From: Pararhodobacter sp. SW119
GTDB lineage: Bacteria; Pseudomonadota; Alphaproteobacteria; Rhodobacterales; Rhodobacteraceae
Assembly: GCF_017811755.1 (NCBI RefSeq)
Contig: NZ_JADDJF010000028.1
Coordinates: 1-40,848 of the forward strand
Direction: 5' to 3'
DNA length: 40,848 nucleotides
The notes under the pieces were generated by a model. The model had not been told where the DNA came from and did not search any database. It saw nothing but the letters and a program-made list of their open reading frames with translations. A program made the position numbers and the translations under genes. Positions 2,902 through 9,414 of the stretch are shown in pieces (the stretch's first letter is position 1; each line of letters starts with the position of its first letter).

Positions 2902-2943
2902 GAAGGGTTCCGGGGCGGTCCTTTTTCTGACCGCGGGCCGATG

Positions 2944-3000
2944 CGGACAGTGCCCGCGAAACGGCCCACCCGCCCGCCCCCGTTTCGCGGGCACTGCCCG
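2944..3000. terminator. Long inverted repeat between convergent xseA and pth
   Basis: A perfect 17-base inverted repeat has its arms at 2948-2964 and 2980-2996 around a 15-base loop. After one mismatch it continues for three more pairs (2944-2946 with 2998-3000). It lies between the converging ends of xseA and pth, the normal place for a bidirectional terminator. Neither side has a clear T tract, so a dispersed palindromic repeat is an alternative. Confidence 0.55.
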
Positions 3001-3032
3001 CTTCATCGCACCGGAGAGCGCGTTCGGTCGGG

Positions 3033-3740
3033 TCAGCGGAAGCGGTCGATCAGCTTTTGCAGGGCGCTGCGGGTGTCCGGGGCGGTCTCGGTCTTCGGCG
3101 TCGGTTCGGGGCGAGGGGCGGGATCCGCCTGCGGCGCAGGATCTTTCCGTTGCGTCTGCGCGGCATTTCGGGAGGGCGCGGCGCGCGCGGCGACGGCGTT
3201 GAGAAAGCGGGCGCTGTCGCCCTTGGCCAGGTGCGGCGCGCCGTCGCTGATCCCGCGCATCAGGTCGTCCAGCCAGTCGGCATCGGCCTTGGCGAAATCG
3301 TGCAGCACATAGGCCGAGACCCGGTCCTTGTGCCCGGGATGCCCGATCCCCAGCCGGACGCGCTGAAAATGGGCGCCCGCATGCGCCATGATCGAGCGCA
3401 GTCCGTTGTGGCCGGCGTGGCCGCCGCCCTGCTTGACGCGGCACTTGCCCGGCGCAAGGTCCAGTTCGTCATGGAAGACGGTCACCTCGACCGGATCGAG
3501 CTTGTGAAACTGCGCCGCCGCGCCGACCGCGTCGCCCGAGAGGTTCATGAAGGTCTGCGGCTTGAGCAGCAGGATCCTCTCACCCGCCAGCGTCCCCTCG
3601 GCCAGCAGTCCCTTGAACTTCGCGCGCCAGGGCGAGAAGCCGTGGTCGGCGGCGATACGGTCGACCGCCATGAAGCCGATGTTGTGCCGGTTGCCGGCGT
3701 ATTTCGTGCCCGGATTGCCCAGGCCCACCCAGAGTTTCAT
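3033..3740 (-). CDS. pth: Peptidyl-tRNA hydrolase
   Basis: This enzyme cleaves the ester bond of peptidyl-tRNAs that drop off the ribosome and so recycles tRNA in the cytoplasm. The start MKLWVGLGNPGTKYAGNRHN carries the conserved Asn and catalytic His (residues 9 and 19). The HDELDLAPGK motif near 90 holds the catalytic Asp, and GGGHAGHNGLRSI near 106 completes the active site. The ATG at 3738-3740 matches the family N-terminus; a GTG two codons upstream is possible but unneeded. At 235 residues it is longer than the usual 190-200, because of a Pro/Ala/Arg-rich tail (about 183-225) of low complexity. rplY lies upstream on the same strand, the usual rplY-pth pairing, but with a terminator-like hairpin and a repeat element in the gap. 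Confidence 0.96.
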   Translation of the reverse strand: MKLWVGLGNPGTKYAGNRHNIGFMAVDRIAADHGFSPWRAKFKGLLAEGTLAGERILLLKPQTFMNLSGDAVGAAAQFHKLDPVEVTVFHDELDLAPGKCRVKQGGGHAGHNGLRSIMAHAGAHFQRVRLGIGHPGHKDRVSAYVLHDFAKADADWLDDLMRGISDGAPHLAKGDSARFLNAVAARAAPSRNAAQTQRKDPAPQADPAPRPEPTPKTETAPDTRSALQKLIDRFR

Positions 3741-3790: not shown

Positions 3791-3816
3791 AAGAACCCCG
3801 CCCGGAGGGGGCGGGG
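3791..3816 (-). terminator. Hairpin terminator after rplY
   Basis: Read on the minus strand, an 8-base perfect GC stem (CCCCGCCC pairing with GGGCGGGG, positions 3796-3803 and 3809-3816, loop of 5) is followed by TTCTT. This fits a Rho-independent terminator between rplY and pth. It may only partly terminate, since pth follows on the same strand. Confidence 0.5.
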
Positions 3817-3824
3817 CTGGCGCA

Positions 3825-3901
3825 GTGTCCACGCGTGGACACCTTGGCAAGGTCTTGATTTCAGGGAAGGAAAAGCCCGCGTTAACCGCAATGAAACTTT
3901 C
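3825..3901 (-). repeat. Composite repeat element, copy A (22-base box, 37-base spacer, 18-base palindrome)
   Basis: On the minus strand a 22-base box (3901 down to 3880, containing TTTCATTGCGGTTAACG) is followed after exactly 37 bases by the perfect 18-base palindrome GTGTCCACGCGTGGACAC (3842-3825). The identical box, the same spacer length and a covarying palindrome recur at 8855-8931 on the other strand. The element lies in the rplY-pth gap. I do not recognise it as a named family; its function is unknown. Confidence 0.6.
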
Positions 3902-3947
3902 CGCGCAGCCGCCCTGGGGCATCCGCGCGAAGGTCACGGTGCGGAAC

Positions 3948-4571
3948 TCAGATTTCTTCTTCCTCTTCCTCGACCTCTTCGTCCTCGTCGCCGGCCTGCA
4001 GGCCCTTCGGCGCGGCGAGGTTGGCGATCACGAAGTTCCGCGTGACGGTCGGCTTTGCGCCTTCCGGCAGGGCGATGTCGCTGATGTGGATGACGTCGCC
4101 GATCTGCTTGCCGGTCAGGTCCACAACGAGCTTTTCGGGGATGTCGCCGGCGATCACGCTCAGTTCCACCTCGGGGCGGACCACGGTCAGCGTGCCGCCC
4201 TTCTTCAGCCCCGGCGCCAGGCCGTGGTTGATGAATTCGACATGAATGAACAGCTTGATCCGCGTCGTGCGGCGCAGGCGCATCAGGTCGACATGCGTCG
4301 GCAGGTCCTTGATCACGTCGCGCTGGACGCTGCGGCAGATGACGCGCACGTCATCGTGGCCTTCGACCTTCAGGTTCCACAGCTTCGAGAGGAAGCGCCC
4401 CTCCTTCAGCCGTTTCACGAGGTAGTTGTAGTCCATGTCGATGGCGATCGGGTCGTTGCCGCCACCATAGACGACGCCAGGTACCTTGCCTTCACGGCGG
4501 GATTGACGGGCGGCCCCCTTGCCTGTCCCCGTGCGTACCTTGGCGATCAGATCGGGGATCTCACCAGCCAT
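3948..4571 (-). CDS. rplY: 50S ribosomal protein L25/general stress protein Ctc
   Basis: This is the long (CTC-type) form of ribosomal protein L25, which binds 5S rRNA in the large subunit. The N-terminal L25 domain covers about residues 5-95 ([20 protein letters not shown], then the HVDLMRL block). A C-terminal beta domain follows to about 190. The end is a very acidic tail of nearly uninterrupted Glu and Asp. The start at 4571 (MAGEIPDL) has a GGAG ribosome-binding site about 9 bases upstream; the frame stays open further upstream, but that sequence is not L25-like. 207 residues fits alphaproteobacterial L25. It is divergent from the short ORF at 4745 across 173 bases. Confidence 0.96.
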
Positions 4572-4744
4572 TGTCGTTGCTCCAGTTTGCTTGTGGTACG
4601 CGCCCCTCCAAGGGTGGATGCGCGCATCGCGTGCGCATAGACGGTTTCGCCGCGCTTGAAAAGCCCCCGGGGACGCCGGAAAGGCTGAAACTGGCGCCCG
4701 CGGCGGCCATTGGCGCGGCACTGGCGCGCGGATAGGGTGGGACC

Positions 4745-5380
4745 ATGGACCGTCAGTTTGCCGCCGAACTCAACGAGCGGCTGTTTACGCATTTCGTCGC
4801 CGGCGCCTGGCGCGCGCCGCTGTCGGACCGGCACCTGCCGGTGACCGGCCCCGATGGAGCGCCGCTGGGACGCATCGTTTGTGCGGGGCCTTCCGACATC
4901 GCCCGCGCGTGCGGCGGGGTGGCGGCGCAGCTGCGCGCGGCGGCGGAGGCGGCGGATCCCGCCGTCCTCTGGCAGGCGCTTCGCGATGAGGGCGCGCTTC
5001 TGGCGGCGCTGCGGGCGGGCGAGGGGGTCGAGGAGATGCTGCGCGCGCCCGAACCCGTGGACCTGCCGGGCAAGGGGCCGCTGGTCCTGCTGACGGCGGC
5101 GGCGGTGCCGGTGGATCGGATCGCGGGGTTGCTGATCGCCGGGGCGCGGCGCGGGATGATCTGGAAGCCGGCGCCGGCGGCGGCGACCTCGGCGCATCTG
5201 ATGATGCGCATCCTCGGGCCGCGGGCCGGGGGGCGGCTGGCGATGGTGCAGGGCGATCACGCGACCGGCGCGCTGCTGGCCGGGCGCGGCGGGCTGGTCT
5301 GGGCCGGGCAGGGGCCGGCGCCCGCCGACCTGCCCGCGCCGCTGCTCAGCCTTTCGGCCAGACCTCGGGCCCGCCGATGA
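4745..5380 (+). CDS. Short aldehyde-dehydrogenase-like protein, probably non-catalytic
   Basis: The first 60 residues resemble the start of aldehyde dehydrogenases: [20 protein letters not shown] followed by [19 protein letters not shown] matches the usual 'yidGeWv...npatGe.ig.v..a...di..A' pattern. The middle has a weak match to the cofactor-fold region ([19 protein letters not shown], then [18 protein letters not shown] near 137). At 211 residues it is less than half of a full enzyme (about 480) and has no catalytic-Cys region. Codon use is fully typical of the neighbours, so it is either a conserved truncated paralogue or an old remnant. The 3' end overlaps the convergent ppk2 by 35 bases. 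A role cannot be assigned. Confidence 0.6.
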
Positions 5381-6230
5381 TCTGCGGGTCGGGGGCGCCC
5401 AGGGCGTCGGGGTCCTTCCGGTCATAGTCGAACGCGGAAAGGATGCGCTGGAAGGCAGCGATGCGGGCGCGGTACTTGTCGTCGCTGCGGATCACCGTCC
5501 AGGGCGCGAAGTCGAAATGGCTGCGGGCGAACATTTCGGCGATGGCCTGAGTATAGGCATCCCATTTCGCCAGCCCCTCGACATCGATGGACGAGAGTTT
5601 CCACTGCTTCAGGGGATGGCCTTCGCGCGCCAGCATCCGGCGCAGCTGTTCGGCGCGGCTGACATTGAACCAGAGCTTGATCAGGTGGATGCCGTCCTGG
5701 GTAATGGTGCGCTCGACCTCGGGGAGTTGGGCGAAAAAGCGCGCGCGCTCAGCCTCGGTGCAGAAGCCGAAGACCGGCTCGATAACCGCGCGGTTGTACC
5801 AGCTGCGGTCCATCAGCACCATCTCGCCCGCCGCCGGAAGGTGCTCGATATAGCGCTGAAAGAACCATTGGCTGCGTTCGCGGTCATCGGGTTTTCCCAG
5901 CGCCATGATGCGGGCGGTGCGGGGGTTCAGGTTCTCAGTCACGCGGCGGATCGCGCCGGATTTTCCGGCGGTGTCGCGGCCTTCGAAGATGAGGACAAGC
6001 CGGGTGCCGGTGGCGTCGATCCAGGTCTTCAGCTTCACCATCTCGATCTGAAGTTCGCGCATCCGGGCGTAGTAGTCGTCGCGCTTCATCCAGCGGTCGT
6101 AGGGAAAATCCGGGGTGATGATGTCGCGCTTGCGCCCCTCCTCGATCGCGGTGCGGATCTCGGCCGGGGCTTCGTCGGCCAGGTAGCGGCTGATCGCGCC
6201 GTCGAAGGGCAGGGGGGCGGCATCGGTCAT
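5346..6230 (-). CDS. ppk2: Polyphosphate kinase 2
   Basis: PPK2 enzymes transfer phosphate between polyphosphate and nucleotides, usually favouring polyphosphate-driven nucleotide phosphorylation, in the cytoplasm. The protein has one PPK2 domain. Walker A is FEGRDTAGKSGAI (about 82-94), and Walker B with the lid start is MVLMDRSWYNRA (about 137-148). A block with the family pattern FGFCTEAERARFFAQLPEVE follows near 154. The 294-residue length and the N-terminal extension before the first domain strand fit class I PPK2. The ATG at 6230 precedes MTDAAPLPF. It is convergent with the ALDH-like ORF and divergent from the TfoX-C gene. Whether the substrate is ADP, GDP or AMP cannot be read here. 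Confidence 0.93.
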   Translation of the reverse strand: MTDAAPLPFDGAISRYLADEAPAEIRTAIEEGRKRDIITPDFPYDRWMKRDDYYARMRELQIEMVKLKTWIDATGTRLVLIFEGRDTAGKSGAIRRVTENLNPRTARIMALGKPDDRERSQWFFQRYIEHLPAAGEMVLMDRSWYNRAVIEPVFGFCTEAERARFFAQLPEVERTITQDGIHLIKLWFNVSRAEQLRRMLAREGHPLKQWKLSSIDVEGLAKWDAYTQAIAEMFARSHFDFAPWTVIRSDDKYRARIAAFQRILSAFDYDRKDPDALGAPDPQIIGGPEVWPKG

Positions 6231-6323
6231 CGGGCACCAGGGTTGCGCGGTGGTTTGCGGGGCGGAAGGCTAGGCTGCGCCCGCCCTCTTGCCAAGCCGG
6301 TTCGCGCGCGGCATCTCAAGGCG

Positions 6324-6674
6324 ATGTCGACGCCCATCTCCTCGATCCGCAACCTCGGCCCCGCGATGGAGGCCGCCTTCGCCCGCGCCGGGATCGGCAG
6401 TGCCGAGGAATTGCGCGAACTGGGGCCGGACGTGGCCTATGCGCGGCTTCTGCAGACCGGGCACCGGGCGCATTTCATCGCCTATTACGTTCTGGTCATG
6501 GGCTTGCAGGGGCGGCCGTGGAACGACTGCAAGGGCGCCGAGAAGGCGGAATTGCGGGCGCGGTTCGATGCGCTGAAATCCGCTCATGTTTCCAAGGGGG
6601 GACTTGCCGGACTGGAGGCGGTGCTGGATGAAATCGGGGTGGTGCCGCCCCGACCCGGAACGAGGCGCGGCTGA
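6324..6674 (+). CDS. TfoX/Sxy C-terminal-domain family protein
   Basis: A small 116-residue protein made almost wholly of a TfoX C-terminal-like domain. The hallmark is ISSIRNLGPAMEAAFARAGI, followed by ELGPDVAYARLLQTGHR and a LQGRPWNDC stretch. The domain has a helix-hairpin-helix character. In E. coli the full-length Sxy/TfoX protein works with CRP to induce competence genes, but solitary C-terminal proteins are common in alphaproteobacteria and their role is not established. The start at 6324 (MSTPISS) was chosen because the frame upstream is antisense to ppk2. The transglycosylase gene follows 18 bases later and may be co-transcribed. Confidence 0.75.
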   Translation: MSTPISSIRNLGPAMEAAFARAGIGSAEELRELGPDVAYARLLQTGHRAHFIAYYVLVMGLQGRPWNDCKGAEKAELRARFDALKSAHVSKGGLAGLEAVLDEIGVVPPRPGTRRG

Positions 6675-6692
6675 ACCCCGAGGGACCGAACC

Positions 6693-7181
6693 ATGCGCCT
6701 GAAATTCCTGGCCCTGCCGCTTGCGCTGCTGATGGCCGCCTGCGGCAGCGCCCCCGAAGTGGCCAGCCGTGGCGACACGGGGATCGACCGCTACGCGACC
6801 GCGACGCCCGAACTGGTCGCCCGCATCGACCGCGCCGCCGACGCGCATCGCATTCCGCGGGCGCTGATGCACCGCGTCGTTCAGCGCGAAAGCGGCTATC
6901 GGCCGGGGGCGCGCAACGGGCCCTACTGGGGGCTGATGCAGATCCTGCCGCAGACCGCGCGGACGATGGGCTTTGGCGGCGCGCCGCAGGACCTGCTGGA
7001 TCCCGAAGTGAACCTGCGCTACGCGGGCCGCTACCTGCGCGGCGCCTGGCTGGTCGCGGATGGCGATATCGACCGGGCGGTGCAATGGTATGCGCGCGGC
7101 TACTACTACGAGGCGCGCGACCGCTGCATGCTGGTACAGACCGGGCTTGCCGCGCGCGAGGTCAATCGCCGCTGCGGCTGA
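6693..7181 (+). CDS. Lytic transglycosylase (SLT domain) lipoprotein
   Basis: A 162-residue putative peptidoglycan lytic transglycosylase. The N-terminus is a lipoprotein signal with lipobox LMAAC (Cys17), so it should be lipidated and held at the outer or inner membrane facing the periplasm. The SLT fold follows: ALMHRVVQRESGYRPGA holds the catalytic Glu (residue 66), then GLMQILPQTARTMGF near 80 and LRYAGRYLRG near 109, which are the standard SLT motifs. It is short for the family and has no extra domains. Two Cys near the C-terminus (in DRCMLVQ and RRCG) could form a disulphide. The 213 bases to chrA contain small GC-rich hairpins around 7290-7322 but no other gene that I can see. Confidence 0.88.
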   Translation: MRLKFLALPLALLMAACGSAPEVASRGDTGIDRYATATPELVARIDRAADAHRIPRALMHRVVQRESGYRPGARNGPYWGLMQILPQTARTMGFGGAPQDLLDPEVNLRYAGRYLRGAWLVADGDIDRAVQWYARGYYYEARDRCMLVQTGLAAREVNRRCG

Positions 7182-7394
7182 ACCGATTCGCATTGCGGAA
7201 GGCGCCGTCGCCGCCGCGTCGCCCCTGACCGGCATCGCACGCGTCGGAAAGACCTCACCCCAGGTCCCGGAAGGCAGGCTGCCCCCCCGAAGCGCGGGCT
7301 TCGCTTCCGGCGCCCGCCGGTGTAGGAGGGGGTGTCAGCTGAGAACGCCGGAGGGGCAGGCCCGCCGGACCTTGCGCAGAACCGGACGCCCGCC

Positions 7395-8762
7395 ATGTCG
7401 GATCGCTCCTACCCGACGCTTGCCGAAGCGACCCGCATCTGGGCGCGGATCGGGCTGCTCAGCTTTGGCGGGCCGGCTGGGCAGATCGCGCTCATGCACC
7501 GCATCCTGGTCGAGGAGAACCGCTGGCTGGGCGAGCGGCGTTTCCTGCACGCGCTCAACTACTGCATGCTGCTGCCGGGGCCCGAGGCGATGCAACTGGC
7601 CGTCTACATCGGCTGGCTGATGCACCGCACGCTCGGCGGGATCATCGCGGGCCTGCTGTTCGTGGCGCCCGGCGTCGTGGCGATCATGGCGTTGAGCTGG
7701 ATCTACGCGCTTTACGGAAATGTCGGCGCGGTCGAGGCGCTGTTCTTCGGATTGAAGGCGGCGGTTCTGGCCATTGTCGTGCAGGCGGTGATCCGGATCG
7801 GCACGCGGGCGCTGGGCAATGGCGCGATGCTGGCCATCGCGGCGGCGTCGTTCGTGGCGATCTTCGGATTCGGCGTGCCGTTCCCGCTGATCATCCTGAC
7901 CGCCGGGCTGATCGGCTTCTTCGGCGCCAGGGCGGATCTGCCGGCCTTTCGCGGCGGCGGCGGGCATGGCGCGGTGGGCAAGTCGCAGGTCGACGACGAC
8001 GACACGCTTCTGGGCGCGGAATCGCCCGGCCACACCGCCGTCAATCGCGCCCATGCTTTGCGCATCTCGGCGGTGTTCCTGCTGCTGTGGCTGGCGCCGG
8101 TGGCGGTGCTCTTCGCGCTTCTCGGTCCGGCAAACGTCTTTGCGCAGATCGCCGGCTTCTTCAGCGTCATGGCGGTGGTGACCTTCGGCGGCGCCTATGC
8201 GGTGCTGGCCTATGTCGCGCAGGAGGCGGTGCAGAACTATGGCTGGCTCGCCCCGGGCGAGATGCTGGACGGGCTGGGCATGGCCGAGACGACGCCCGGG
8301 CCGCTGATCATGGTCACGCAGTTCGTGGGCTTCATGGGCGCGCTGCGCGACGCGGGCGGGCTGTCGCCGCTGATGGCGGGGACACTGGGCGGGCTCTTGA
8401 CCACATGGGTCACGTTCACGCCCTGCTTCCTCTGGATCTTCCTCGGCGCACCCTTCATCGAGCGGTTGCGCGACAACCGGCTGCTGGCGGCGGCGCTGAG
8501 CGCGATCACCGGCGCGGTCGTCGGCGTGATCCTCAACCTCGCGGTCTGGTTCGGCCTGCACGTGGTGTTCGATCAGGTCCGAACGGTCACCGCCTACGGG
8601 CTCGACATCGACCTGCCGGTCTGGACGTCGCTCGATCCGGCGGCTGCGGTGCTGGTGCTGGCTGCGCTGGTCGCCGTCTTCCGCTTCCGCCTCGGCCCGG
8701 TGACGGTGCTGCTGGGCTGCGCGGCGGCTGGACTGGCGCTGGGTCTGGCGGGGATTCGATGA
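7395..8762 (+). CDS. chrA: Chromate efflux transporter (CHR family)
   Basis: A long-chain two-domain CHR-family inner-membrane transporter of 455 residues, predicted to export chromate; relatives may carry other anions. The repeat signature is seen twice. The N-terminal half has ARIGLLSFGGPAGQIALMHR and LPGPEAMQLAVYIGW. The C-terminal half has VVTFGGAYAVLAYV near 281 and AETTPGPLIMVTQFVGF near 313. About ten hydrophobic segments are evident. A charged loop (about 190-220) joins the halves. The ATG at 7395 (MSDRSYPTLAEA) fits homologues; a GTG at 7332 is in frame but lies only two bases after an AGGAGG, too close to use that site. Next downstream is a GC-only hairpin, then the repeat element copy B. 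Confidence 0.92.
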   Translation: MSDRSYPTLAEATRIWARIGLLSFGGPAGQIALMHRILVEENRWLGERRFLHALNYCMLLPGPEAMQLAVYIGWLMHRTLGGIIAGLLFVAPGVVAIMALSWIYALYGNVGAVEALFFGLKAAVLAIVVQAVIRIGTRALGNGAMLAIAAASFVAIFGFGVPFPLIILTAGLIGFFGARADLPAFRGGGGHGAVGKSQVDDDDTLLGAESPGHTAVNRAHALRISAVFLLLWLAPVAVLFALLGPANVFAQIAGFFSVMAVVTFGGAYAVLAYVAQEAVQNYGWLAPGEMLDGLGMAETTPGPLIMVTQFVGFMGALRDAGGLSPLMAGTLGGLLTTWVTFTPCFLWIFLGAPFIERLRDNRLLAAALSAITGAVVGVILNLAVWFGLHVVFDQVRTVTAYGLDIDLPVWTSLDPAAAVLVLAALVAVFRFRLGPVTVLLGCAAAGLALGLAGIR

Positions 8763-8812
8763 AGGCCCGTTTGACCCGTGGTTGCGGGCTGTCTTGAGCC
8801 ATCGTGGATTGC

Positions 8813-8840
8813 CGGGCCGGGCAAGGGCTGGCCCGGCCCG
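8813..8840 (+). terminator. GC-rich hairpin after chrA
   Basis: A 10-base perfect stem (CGGGCCGGGC at 8813-8822 with its complement at 8831-8840, loop of 8) lies 50 bases after the chrA stop. There is no T tract, so it may be a weak terminator or an mRNA end-stabilising hairpin. Confidence 0.4.
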
Positions 8841-8854
8841 CGTGGGGCCGGGCA

Positions 8855-8931
8855 GAAAGTTTCATTGCGGTTAACGGCGCAAAATTCGCCTCTGATCTCA
8901 ATGGTTTGACAAAGGGTCCGCATGCGGACCC
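8855..8931 (+). repeat. Composite repeat element, copy B
   Basis: On the plus strand, the 22-base box at 8855-8876 is identical to 3880-3901 on the minus strand. A 37-base spacer follows, then the 18-base palindrome GGGTCCGCATGCGGACCC (8914-8931). Spacer bases shared with copy A cluster near the palindrome (CTGA, TCAA, TTG and CAA at matching positions). It lies between the converging ends of chrA and ndk. Confidence 0.6.
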
Positions 8932-8991: not shown

Positions 8992-9414
8992 TCAGCCGAC
9001 GATTTCGAGGGCCGAGAAGAAGAAGGCAATCTCTTCGGCAGCGGTGTCGGGCGCGTCCGAGCCGTGGACCGAATTCTCGCCCTTCGACAGCGCGAAGTCC
9101 TTGCGGATCGTGCCTTCGGCGGCTTCCGCGGGGTCGGTCGCGCCCATCACTTCGCGGTTCTTCGCGATCGCGCCGTCGCCTTCCAGCACCTGCACAACGA
9201 CCGGGGCCGAGGCCATGAATTCGCACAGCTCGTCATAGAACGGCCGCTCGCGGTGCACGGCGTAGAATTCCCCGGCTTCTTCCTTGCTCAGGTGAATGCG
9301 CTTCTGTGCGATGATGCGCAGCCCGGCGTCCTCGAACTTGGCGTTGATCTTGCCGGTCAGGTTGCGGCGGGTGGCGTCGGGCTTGAGGATGGAAAGCGTG
9401 CGTTCGATGGCCAT
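8992..9414 (-). CDS. ndk: Nucleoside diphosphate kinase
   Basis: Ndk transfers the gamma phosphate of ATP to nucleoside diphosphates through a phospho-histidine and so balances nucleotide pools. The 140-residue length matches the family exactly. [21 protein letters not shown] opens the protein. The active site is the [20 protein letters not shown] block (about 114-133) with the catalytic His117. The start at 9414 begins the conserved N-terminus; a 14-codon upstream extension is open but is not family-like. The divergent ABC-F gene starts 172 bases away and the promoters must share that gap. Confidence 0.97.

Follow-up and report, generated by a model that had tools for sequence, protein, structure and literature searches.

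The closest described analogue of the element discussed in this work is found in Escherichia coli, namely RIB (also RIP, identical to BIME-1), in which, as Boccard and Prentki reportedly described in 1993, two nearby repetitive extragenic palindromes (REPs) enclose an inter-REP sequence that binds integration host factor (IHF). According to a background passage of PMC2817692, E. coli has repeats that bind IHF and lie at 3′ ends, as well as BIMEs that bind gyrase. At the E. coli datA locus, IHF bound downstream of an operon predominantly interrupts transcription, as stated in the abstract of PMC10950094. Here we examine an element that is present in two copies in a stretch of 40,848 nucleotides (nt) from Pararhodobacter sp. 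SW119 (contig NZ_JADDJF010000028.1; the whole stretch is called the window below). It consists of a conserved box of 20 base pairs (bp), a 38-bp spacer and an 18-bp palindrome.

The element has a defined architecture with fixed spacing, its spacer matches the IHF consensus, it lies at gene ends and only rarely between divergent genes, and it is retained at orthologous loci. Tentatively, we propose that each copy is a nucleoprotein site which is bent by IHF and delimits transcription units, where IHF would occupy the spacer, a second protein would read the box and the palindrome, and the output would be a transcription boundary. We regard this as a good possibility, if somewhat short of probable.

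Architecture of the element

In the window, a 22-base box at 3880-3901 on the minus strand is identical in all letters to 8855-8876 on the plus strand, and in both copies a perfect 18-base palindrome starts exactly 37 bases past this box. The palindromes are GTGTCCACGCGTGGACAC (3825..3842) in copy 1 and GGGTCCGCATGCGGACCC (8914..8931) in copy 2, and their six differing positions constitute three compensated pairs (2/17, 7/12 and 9/10). Box identity, offset, perfect symmetry and compensation had all been claimed in a sequence-only reading of this DNA, and direct reading of both copies confirms them. The 20-base core of the box, located by sequence search, lies inside the 22-base identity at 3881..3900 (minus strand) and 8856..8875 (plus strand). 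No further match to the box at up to three mismatches was found in the window, and 100 shuffles gave none.

Across the whole genome, which comprises 4.51 Mb in 192 contigs, the 20-base core has 106 matches with at most three mismatches, and a reversed-pattern control has none. With 15 more from two congeners, these make up a set of 121 box hits in fetched loci, of which 117, chosen on the box alone, had enough sequence for testing the geometry. A perfect six-pair palindrome core occurs at an offset of 37-39 in 103 of the 117 (93 at 38 and 10 at 39), at least five of the six core pairs in 114 and fewer in three; with shuffled flanks, a perfect core was found anywhere in only 2/117. A box without the palindrome at random spacing, which the sequence-only reading had named as one way in which it could fail, was not the outcome, nor are there only two copies, homologues being present in the congeners.

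A covariance model from box to palindrome was built from 89 of the 106 own-genome hits, filtered for enough sequence and at least six of nine pairs. It gives at least 150 matches in the own genome, the weakest one listed having an E-value of 0.083, and a second model of palindrome plus spacer gives at least 148 copies, the E-values of both models being rough. It had been pointed out earlier that the two window copies enclose 5 kb of DNA running from rplY to chrA; with so many copies, this is a coincidence. In order from the box, as taken from the column profile, which runs in the opposite orientation, the element reads AAAGTTTC(A/G)TTGCGGTTAA(C/T), then 38 bp, then the 18-bp palindrome with the core GYNC-N6-GNRC.

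The spacer looks like an IHF site, with WATCAANNNNTTR and an A/T-rich tract on the box side. We take this to correspond to the IHF consensus, and the spacer presumably resembles the lambda H′ site. Sequence support for the prediction comes from a set of 181 copies from three species, restricted to those with at least six of eight pairs no more than 2 bp away from where they were expected. The motif is perfect in 28 of these and has one mismatch in 68 (96/181 in total), compared to 0.1 and 2.6 in shuffles, and to 0 and 7 of 181 on the opposite strand. It is situated exactly 5 bp from the palindrome in 149/181 copies, and the AT content is 68% in the 14 bp at the A-tract side, whereas the 8 bp with which the spacer starts have 34%. 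By sequence reading together with this family-wide test, the predicted core of copy 1 is AATCAAGACCTTG at 3848..3860 (minus strand), with zero mismatches, and that of copy 2 is TCTCAATGGTTTG at 8896..8908 (plus strand), with a single one. Each of 21 genomes checked has 2-5 HU/IHF-family hits. An extra paralogue in the carriers is not supported, the own genome (G000) and the congeners G014 and G008 having three hits each, as do most congeners.

Two dissimilar sites at a fixed distance, flanking one IHF footprint, are typical of IHF-folded complexes. The 38-bp spacer has about the length of one such footprint, and each copy could be viewed as a bipartite DNA site folded by IHF, in which the bend would put the 20-bp box next to the palindrome. 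A box factor and a palindrome factor, or the extruded palindrome itself, would then form one compact nucleoprotein complex. Located just downstream of stop codons, and mostly between convergent genes, such complexes would stop or dampen transcription and insulate the neighbouring units from each other.

Placement at gene ends

Genes were called with our own codon-usage caller, trained first on the genes of the window and then again on the calls it had made, and the context was determined for 119 of the 121 hits (104 from the own genome and 15 from congeners), two being too short. None of the 119 copies is inside a called gene, although a single copy extends 14 nt into a gene end. The neighbours are convergent in 74 cases, tandem in 31 and divergent in 2, with one side unknown in 12; the 107 copies with both neighbours called thus include 74 convergent and only 2 divergent ones. 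In 101 of 112 copies, the gene on the palindrome side is on the opposite strand and has its end towards the element, at a median distance of 34 nt (101 copies). Seven own-genome loci have copies placed back to back, and at these each of the two palindromes faces one of the convergent genes. Separately, short direct repeats of the type TTGCCATAC were noticed beside the box-side gene end at three loci (L005, L028 and L047).

For comparison, the box-less congener G017 has 148 intergenic gaps of at least 90 nt, of which 26 are convergent, 68 tandem and 54 divergent, whereas the 87 own-genome gaps with the element are 58, 28 and 1, respectively (convergent against the rest, Fisher p about 4e-14). 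The own loci are centred on the elements, and regions away from the locus centres therefore give a better measure of occupancy. There, in the three carriers and with six mismatches allowed, the box is held by 5/9 convergent, 5/49 tandem and 2/36 divergent gaps. The window has two convergent gaps of at least 90 nt. One of them, at 2902-3032, lacks the element, and the other holds copy 2, with chrA (7395..8762, plus strand; name from the sequence-only reading) on the box side and, on the palindrome side and 60 nt away, the end of a gene at 8992..9414 (minus strand) that we take to be ndk from its protein sequence. The placement at gene ends and the rarity in divergent regions point to either transcription or topology.

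Topology is at the heart of the alternative that survives best, in which the element would be a chromosome-architecture site. The IHF-bent palindrome at convergent ends would here anchor supercoil domains, gyrase or a factor of the condensin kind, and would not itself stop RNA polymerase. The convergent enrichment, the at least 148 copies in 4.5 Mb and the fact that the palindrome is mostly not followed by a T-rich tail are in line with this, as is the analogy with the 3′-end IHF-binding repeats and gyrase-binding BIMEs of E. coli (PMC2817692, background passage). On its own, however, an architectural role leaves both the orientation towards the gene end (101/112) and the conserved 20-bp box unexplained, and we consider it unlikely.

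It should be pointed out that several observations speak against the IHF-bent boundary site as well. Copy 1 has rplY (3948..4571, minus strand; again named in the sequence-only reading) on its box side and, on its palindrome side, a gene at 3033..3740 (minus strand) that is presumably pth, judging from the protein sequence. The element is opposite in orientation to both of these neighbours, and just past it, at 3791..3816 (minus strand), sequence reading reveals an ordinary rplY-terminator-like GC hairpin with a T-rich tail. Copy 1 is therefore not the rplY terminator. The same context, with both neighbours on the same strand, is found for 9/104 own copies. A general replacement of canonical terminators by the element is also unsupported, their rates being similarly low with and without it. 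At gene ends with a gap of at least 60 nt, our detector of canonical terminators found few in any genome tested (18/157 in G017), and in the own genome it gave 6/68 for ends with a same-orientation element and 10/123 for ends without, many of these 123 having a reverse-orientation element; a stricter detector gave the same picture. Furthermore, the binding of a dimer alone fails to explain why the variable palindrome positions are symmetric. Finally, read-through transcription lowers IHF binding, according to the abstract of PMC10950094, which means that IHF need not win as a roadblock.

Distribution, inheritance and palindrome symmetry

Of 60 genomes searched for a 16-base core of the box, 3 contain it, all of the same genus, with 86 hits in the own genome, 62 in G014 and 29 in G008. 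An exact 20-mer scan of genome contigs, which may leave out the own record, returned 17 stretches, all from the Rhodobacteraceae metagenome-assembled genomes CSSed165cm_500 (12) and CSSed165cm_288 (5). The model of palindrome plus IHF site gives at least 148 copies in the own genome, 137 in G014 and 79 in G008, while four congeners have 1-3 and eleven have none. In the family, 35 of 295 genomes have a match at E<=0.003, ten of them with at least five among the best 20 matches, although the model was built partly from G106, G159, G075, G105 and G081, whose matches are thus partly by construction. Class-wide, 3/190 genomes match at E<=0.001, that is, the own genome and two that do not belong to the family, each of these with a single weak hit. 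A plasmid-borne element is not supported, blastn of copy 2 against plasmid records giving no match, nor is a viral one, the 15 viral-contig hits of a 16-mer being, by our guess, at about chance level.

Other genera of Rhodobacteraceae use palindromes of their own, TTGTGCACATGTGCACAA in G159, TGTCCCCATGGGGACA in G105 and mostly GCGTCCACNYGTGGACGC in G106, and of the IHF consensus their loci carry the part CAANNNNTTG. TTAAC or CTAAC follows further on in several of them, with TTAAC at +52 in 6/9 G106 copies. Among 40 such loci, the near gene ends at the palindrome in 29; in the remaining 11, the far gene ends towards the element in eight and was not called in three. Two side observations concern these palindromes. 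An extra half-site matching the palindrome arm starts exactly at +35 after the palindrome (GTGGAC in 5/9 G106 copies and GTGCAC in 8/8 of G159; L233-L249). In G021 (L258-L262), variable stems surround a common centre, AAGGTT in 4/5 or else AAGCTT, and by eye half of the stem seems to be repeated further downstream.

A second gene-end motif, CATCTTGCCYYAAATACNC, was originally noticed after ndk and rplY in box-less congeners. At most one mismatch being allowed, 10 of the 15 box-less congeners (G001-G005, G007, G011-G013 and G017) have 16-91 copies of it and the other five 0-6, the reversed controls giving 0, and in the three box carriers it has 0, 0 and 3 copies. None of nine occurrences examined lies in a called gene; all nine have an upstream gene on the same strand, and seven are within 61 nt of its end. 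The two look nearly mutually exclusive, and they may be systems replacing each other. It is possible, if doubtful, that this represents a new class of gene-end boundary in Rhodobacteraceae, consisting of palindrome-IHF-box modules in which the palindrome alphabet and the box would be lineage-specific and the factor fast-evolving, and which genomes would switch with CATCTTGCCYYAAATACNC.

For orthologous loci, 89 own, 49 G014 and 24 G008 copies were considered, the shifted-spacer copies (19 of 181) being excluded. In this sample of fetched loci there are 19 element pairs beside orthologous genes, and the palindrome cores differ in 17 of them, with both cores perfectly symmetric over six pairs in 10/17. 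Orthologous copies have a spacer identity of 0.553, compared to 0.475 in unrelated ones, and the corresponding box identities are 0.884 and 0.879. These values imply inheritance, with nearly saturated neutral positions and a retained box. That conservation persists at loci so close to saturation suggests that the single loci are under selection. At ndk, inspected by eye, the three carriers hold the element with three different palindromes. The 14 box-less congeners have at this place a GC hairpin with TTT or a longer T run behind it (8), a GC hairpin without a T run (1) or another motif with a G/C-rich inverted repeat (4), one being cut off.

The rplY-pth spacer is 207 nt long with the element in the own genome and 103 nt long in G008 and G014, where a hairpin like the own rplY terminator is present and the element absent. 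Most simply, copy 1 is a gain in this species, a loss in both sisters being possible, and the difference of ca 104 bp makes past mobility of the element possible. One can then imagine an old mobile repeat, of the REP or miniature inverted-repeat transposable element (MITE) kind, which inserted beside gene ends and whose conservation reflects past transposition competence. This would also accommodate the high copy number and the patchy spread, with 3 of 18 congeners rich in the element and matches in 35/295 family genomes. However, the most similar spacers among the 89 own copies have an identity of 0.763, within the maxima of 0.711-0.789 obtained on column permutation, so that there is no sign of recent copying, and even next to a nearly saturated spacer the box is still conserved. 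The Y1/RAYT transposase (PF01797) was not found in 7/9 carriers (G014, G008, G106, G159, G021, G324 and G284, three of which are 82-92% complete), partial hits being obtained in G000 and G105, and no terminal inverted repeats, a MITE trait, were seen in the 89-copy alignment. We judge a mobile repeat to be improbable.

Turning to the palindromes, 95.6% of the cells pair over the 89 aligned copies, compared to 72.3% in shuffles. The covariation score of these preselected copies is 0.673, versus 0.244 in shuffles and at most 0.143 in slid registers, whereas two of five covariation measures are not above the shuffles (two-sided-change pairs, 6 vs 5.8; further pair types, 15 vs 15.5). The covariation, together with a box that is kept where orthologous spacers are near-saturated, supports the earlier view that the element is functional, being structured or bound by a dimer, and that the copies are not decayed repeats. 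In the 165 copies of the three carriers with symmetric pairs 3-7, positions 4-5 are TC in 70, CG in 30, CT in 29, TG in 25, CA in 10, TT in 1, and CC and TA in none, where CC would be expected in 29.3, TT in 17.5 and TA in 5.8. This restricted alphabet argues for sequence recognition beyond symmetry. No clear association was found between the type of stem and the type of centre (p=0.10).

A structured RNA had also been among the earlier suggestions, and the palindrome could act as an mRNA 3′-end hairpin, that is, a weak intrinsic terminator or an exonuclease barrier. Its position near the end of the gene (at a median of 34 nt in 101 copies), the strong covariation and the excess of G-U over A-C in the two outermost pairs (35 vs 22; 179 of the 181 copies) would be consistent with this. 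In the core pairs 3-8 of the same 179 copies, on the other hand, only 19 of 1074 cells are broken (4 G-U, 3 A-C and 12 other). G-U is thus no better tolerated there than A-C, and there is no sign that the transcript strand counts. Moreover, a T-rich tail (at least 5 T in the next 8 nt) follows in only 4/181 copies, and the predicted hairpins are weak, with medians of −9.2 to −9.7 kcal mol−1, −6.9 kcal mol−1 for the G159 form, and −2.3 and −4.3 kcal mol−1 for the palindromes of two other genera. The stem GCCC/GGGC, though it should be very stable, is absent (0/165, with 29 expected). An RNA element is accordingly disfavoured, and we find it very improbable. Least credible of all is that the symmetry comes from quasipalindrome correction, i.e. 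template-switching in hairpins, on a loosely specific dimer-binding site, which would explain the paired changes and few intermediates without selection for pairing but not the restricted alphabet at positions 4-5 (CC 0, TT 1 and TA 0 of 165).

Comparison with known systems

No description of this element was recognised in full-text literature searches, although journals outside the search could hold one. In the window there is no match to an Rfam family at the gathering score, and a sigma70-like promoter, considered from reading of the consensus only, is unsupported. Analogies with attC, cos, P1 parS and CRISPR leaders are likewise unsupported. Intrinsic terminators share with the element the hairpin potential just past gene ends. 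However, the element is mostly without a T-rich tail, has a weak stem, and carries a conserved IHF-like site and the box on its far side. With the tail and the hairpin medians given above, the stable GC stem and U-tract of an intrinsic terminator are lacking, and this assignment is rejected.

REPs and REPINs are likewise short extragenic palindromes in more than 100 copies. The element differs from them in its long non-palindromic box at a fixed distance, and no near-identical copies are found among the 89. A conserved tag of the GTAG/CGTC type, as named in the title of PMC3733652, is absent beside the palindrome in the column profile, and with no PF01797 found in 7/9 carriers, membership of REP/RAYT is rejected. 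Of the earlier description as REP-like, the REP/RAYT definition therefore falls, while the analogy with IHF-binding RIBs is apt. The datA locus offers a further likeness, in that an IHF site lies below a transcription unit and IHF interrupts transcription there (abstract of PMC10950094). It differs in being a single locus with DnaA-binding sequences, and the same abstract describes no module of palindrome and box.

If the proposed boundary site is right, genes are ended or insulated by an IHF-folded DNA complex at well over 100 loci. The palindromes, variable yet nearly always symmetric, would then show, like a mutational scan carried out by nature, which features the site needs, and its function could be tested directly because some related species have the system and others lack it. 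To our knowledge, the RIBs of E. coli are the only precedent for a genome-scale role of IHF at gene ends. Like these, which lie at 3′ ends of transcription units, the element avoids genes (0/119 inside) and faces a gene 3′ end (101/112). Instead of two inverted REPs around the IHF site, it has a single palindrome and an unrelated, added 20-bp box; its palindromes are variable and compensated, and it belongs to another bacterial family. RIB/BIME-1 is therefore the closest analogue, and the element, without being one, would work in a like manner.

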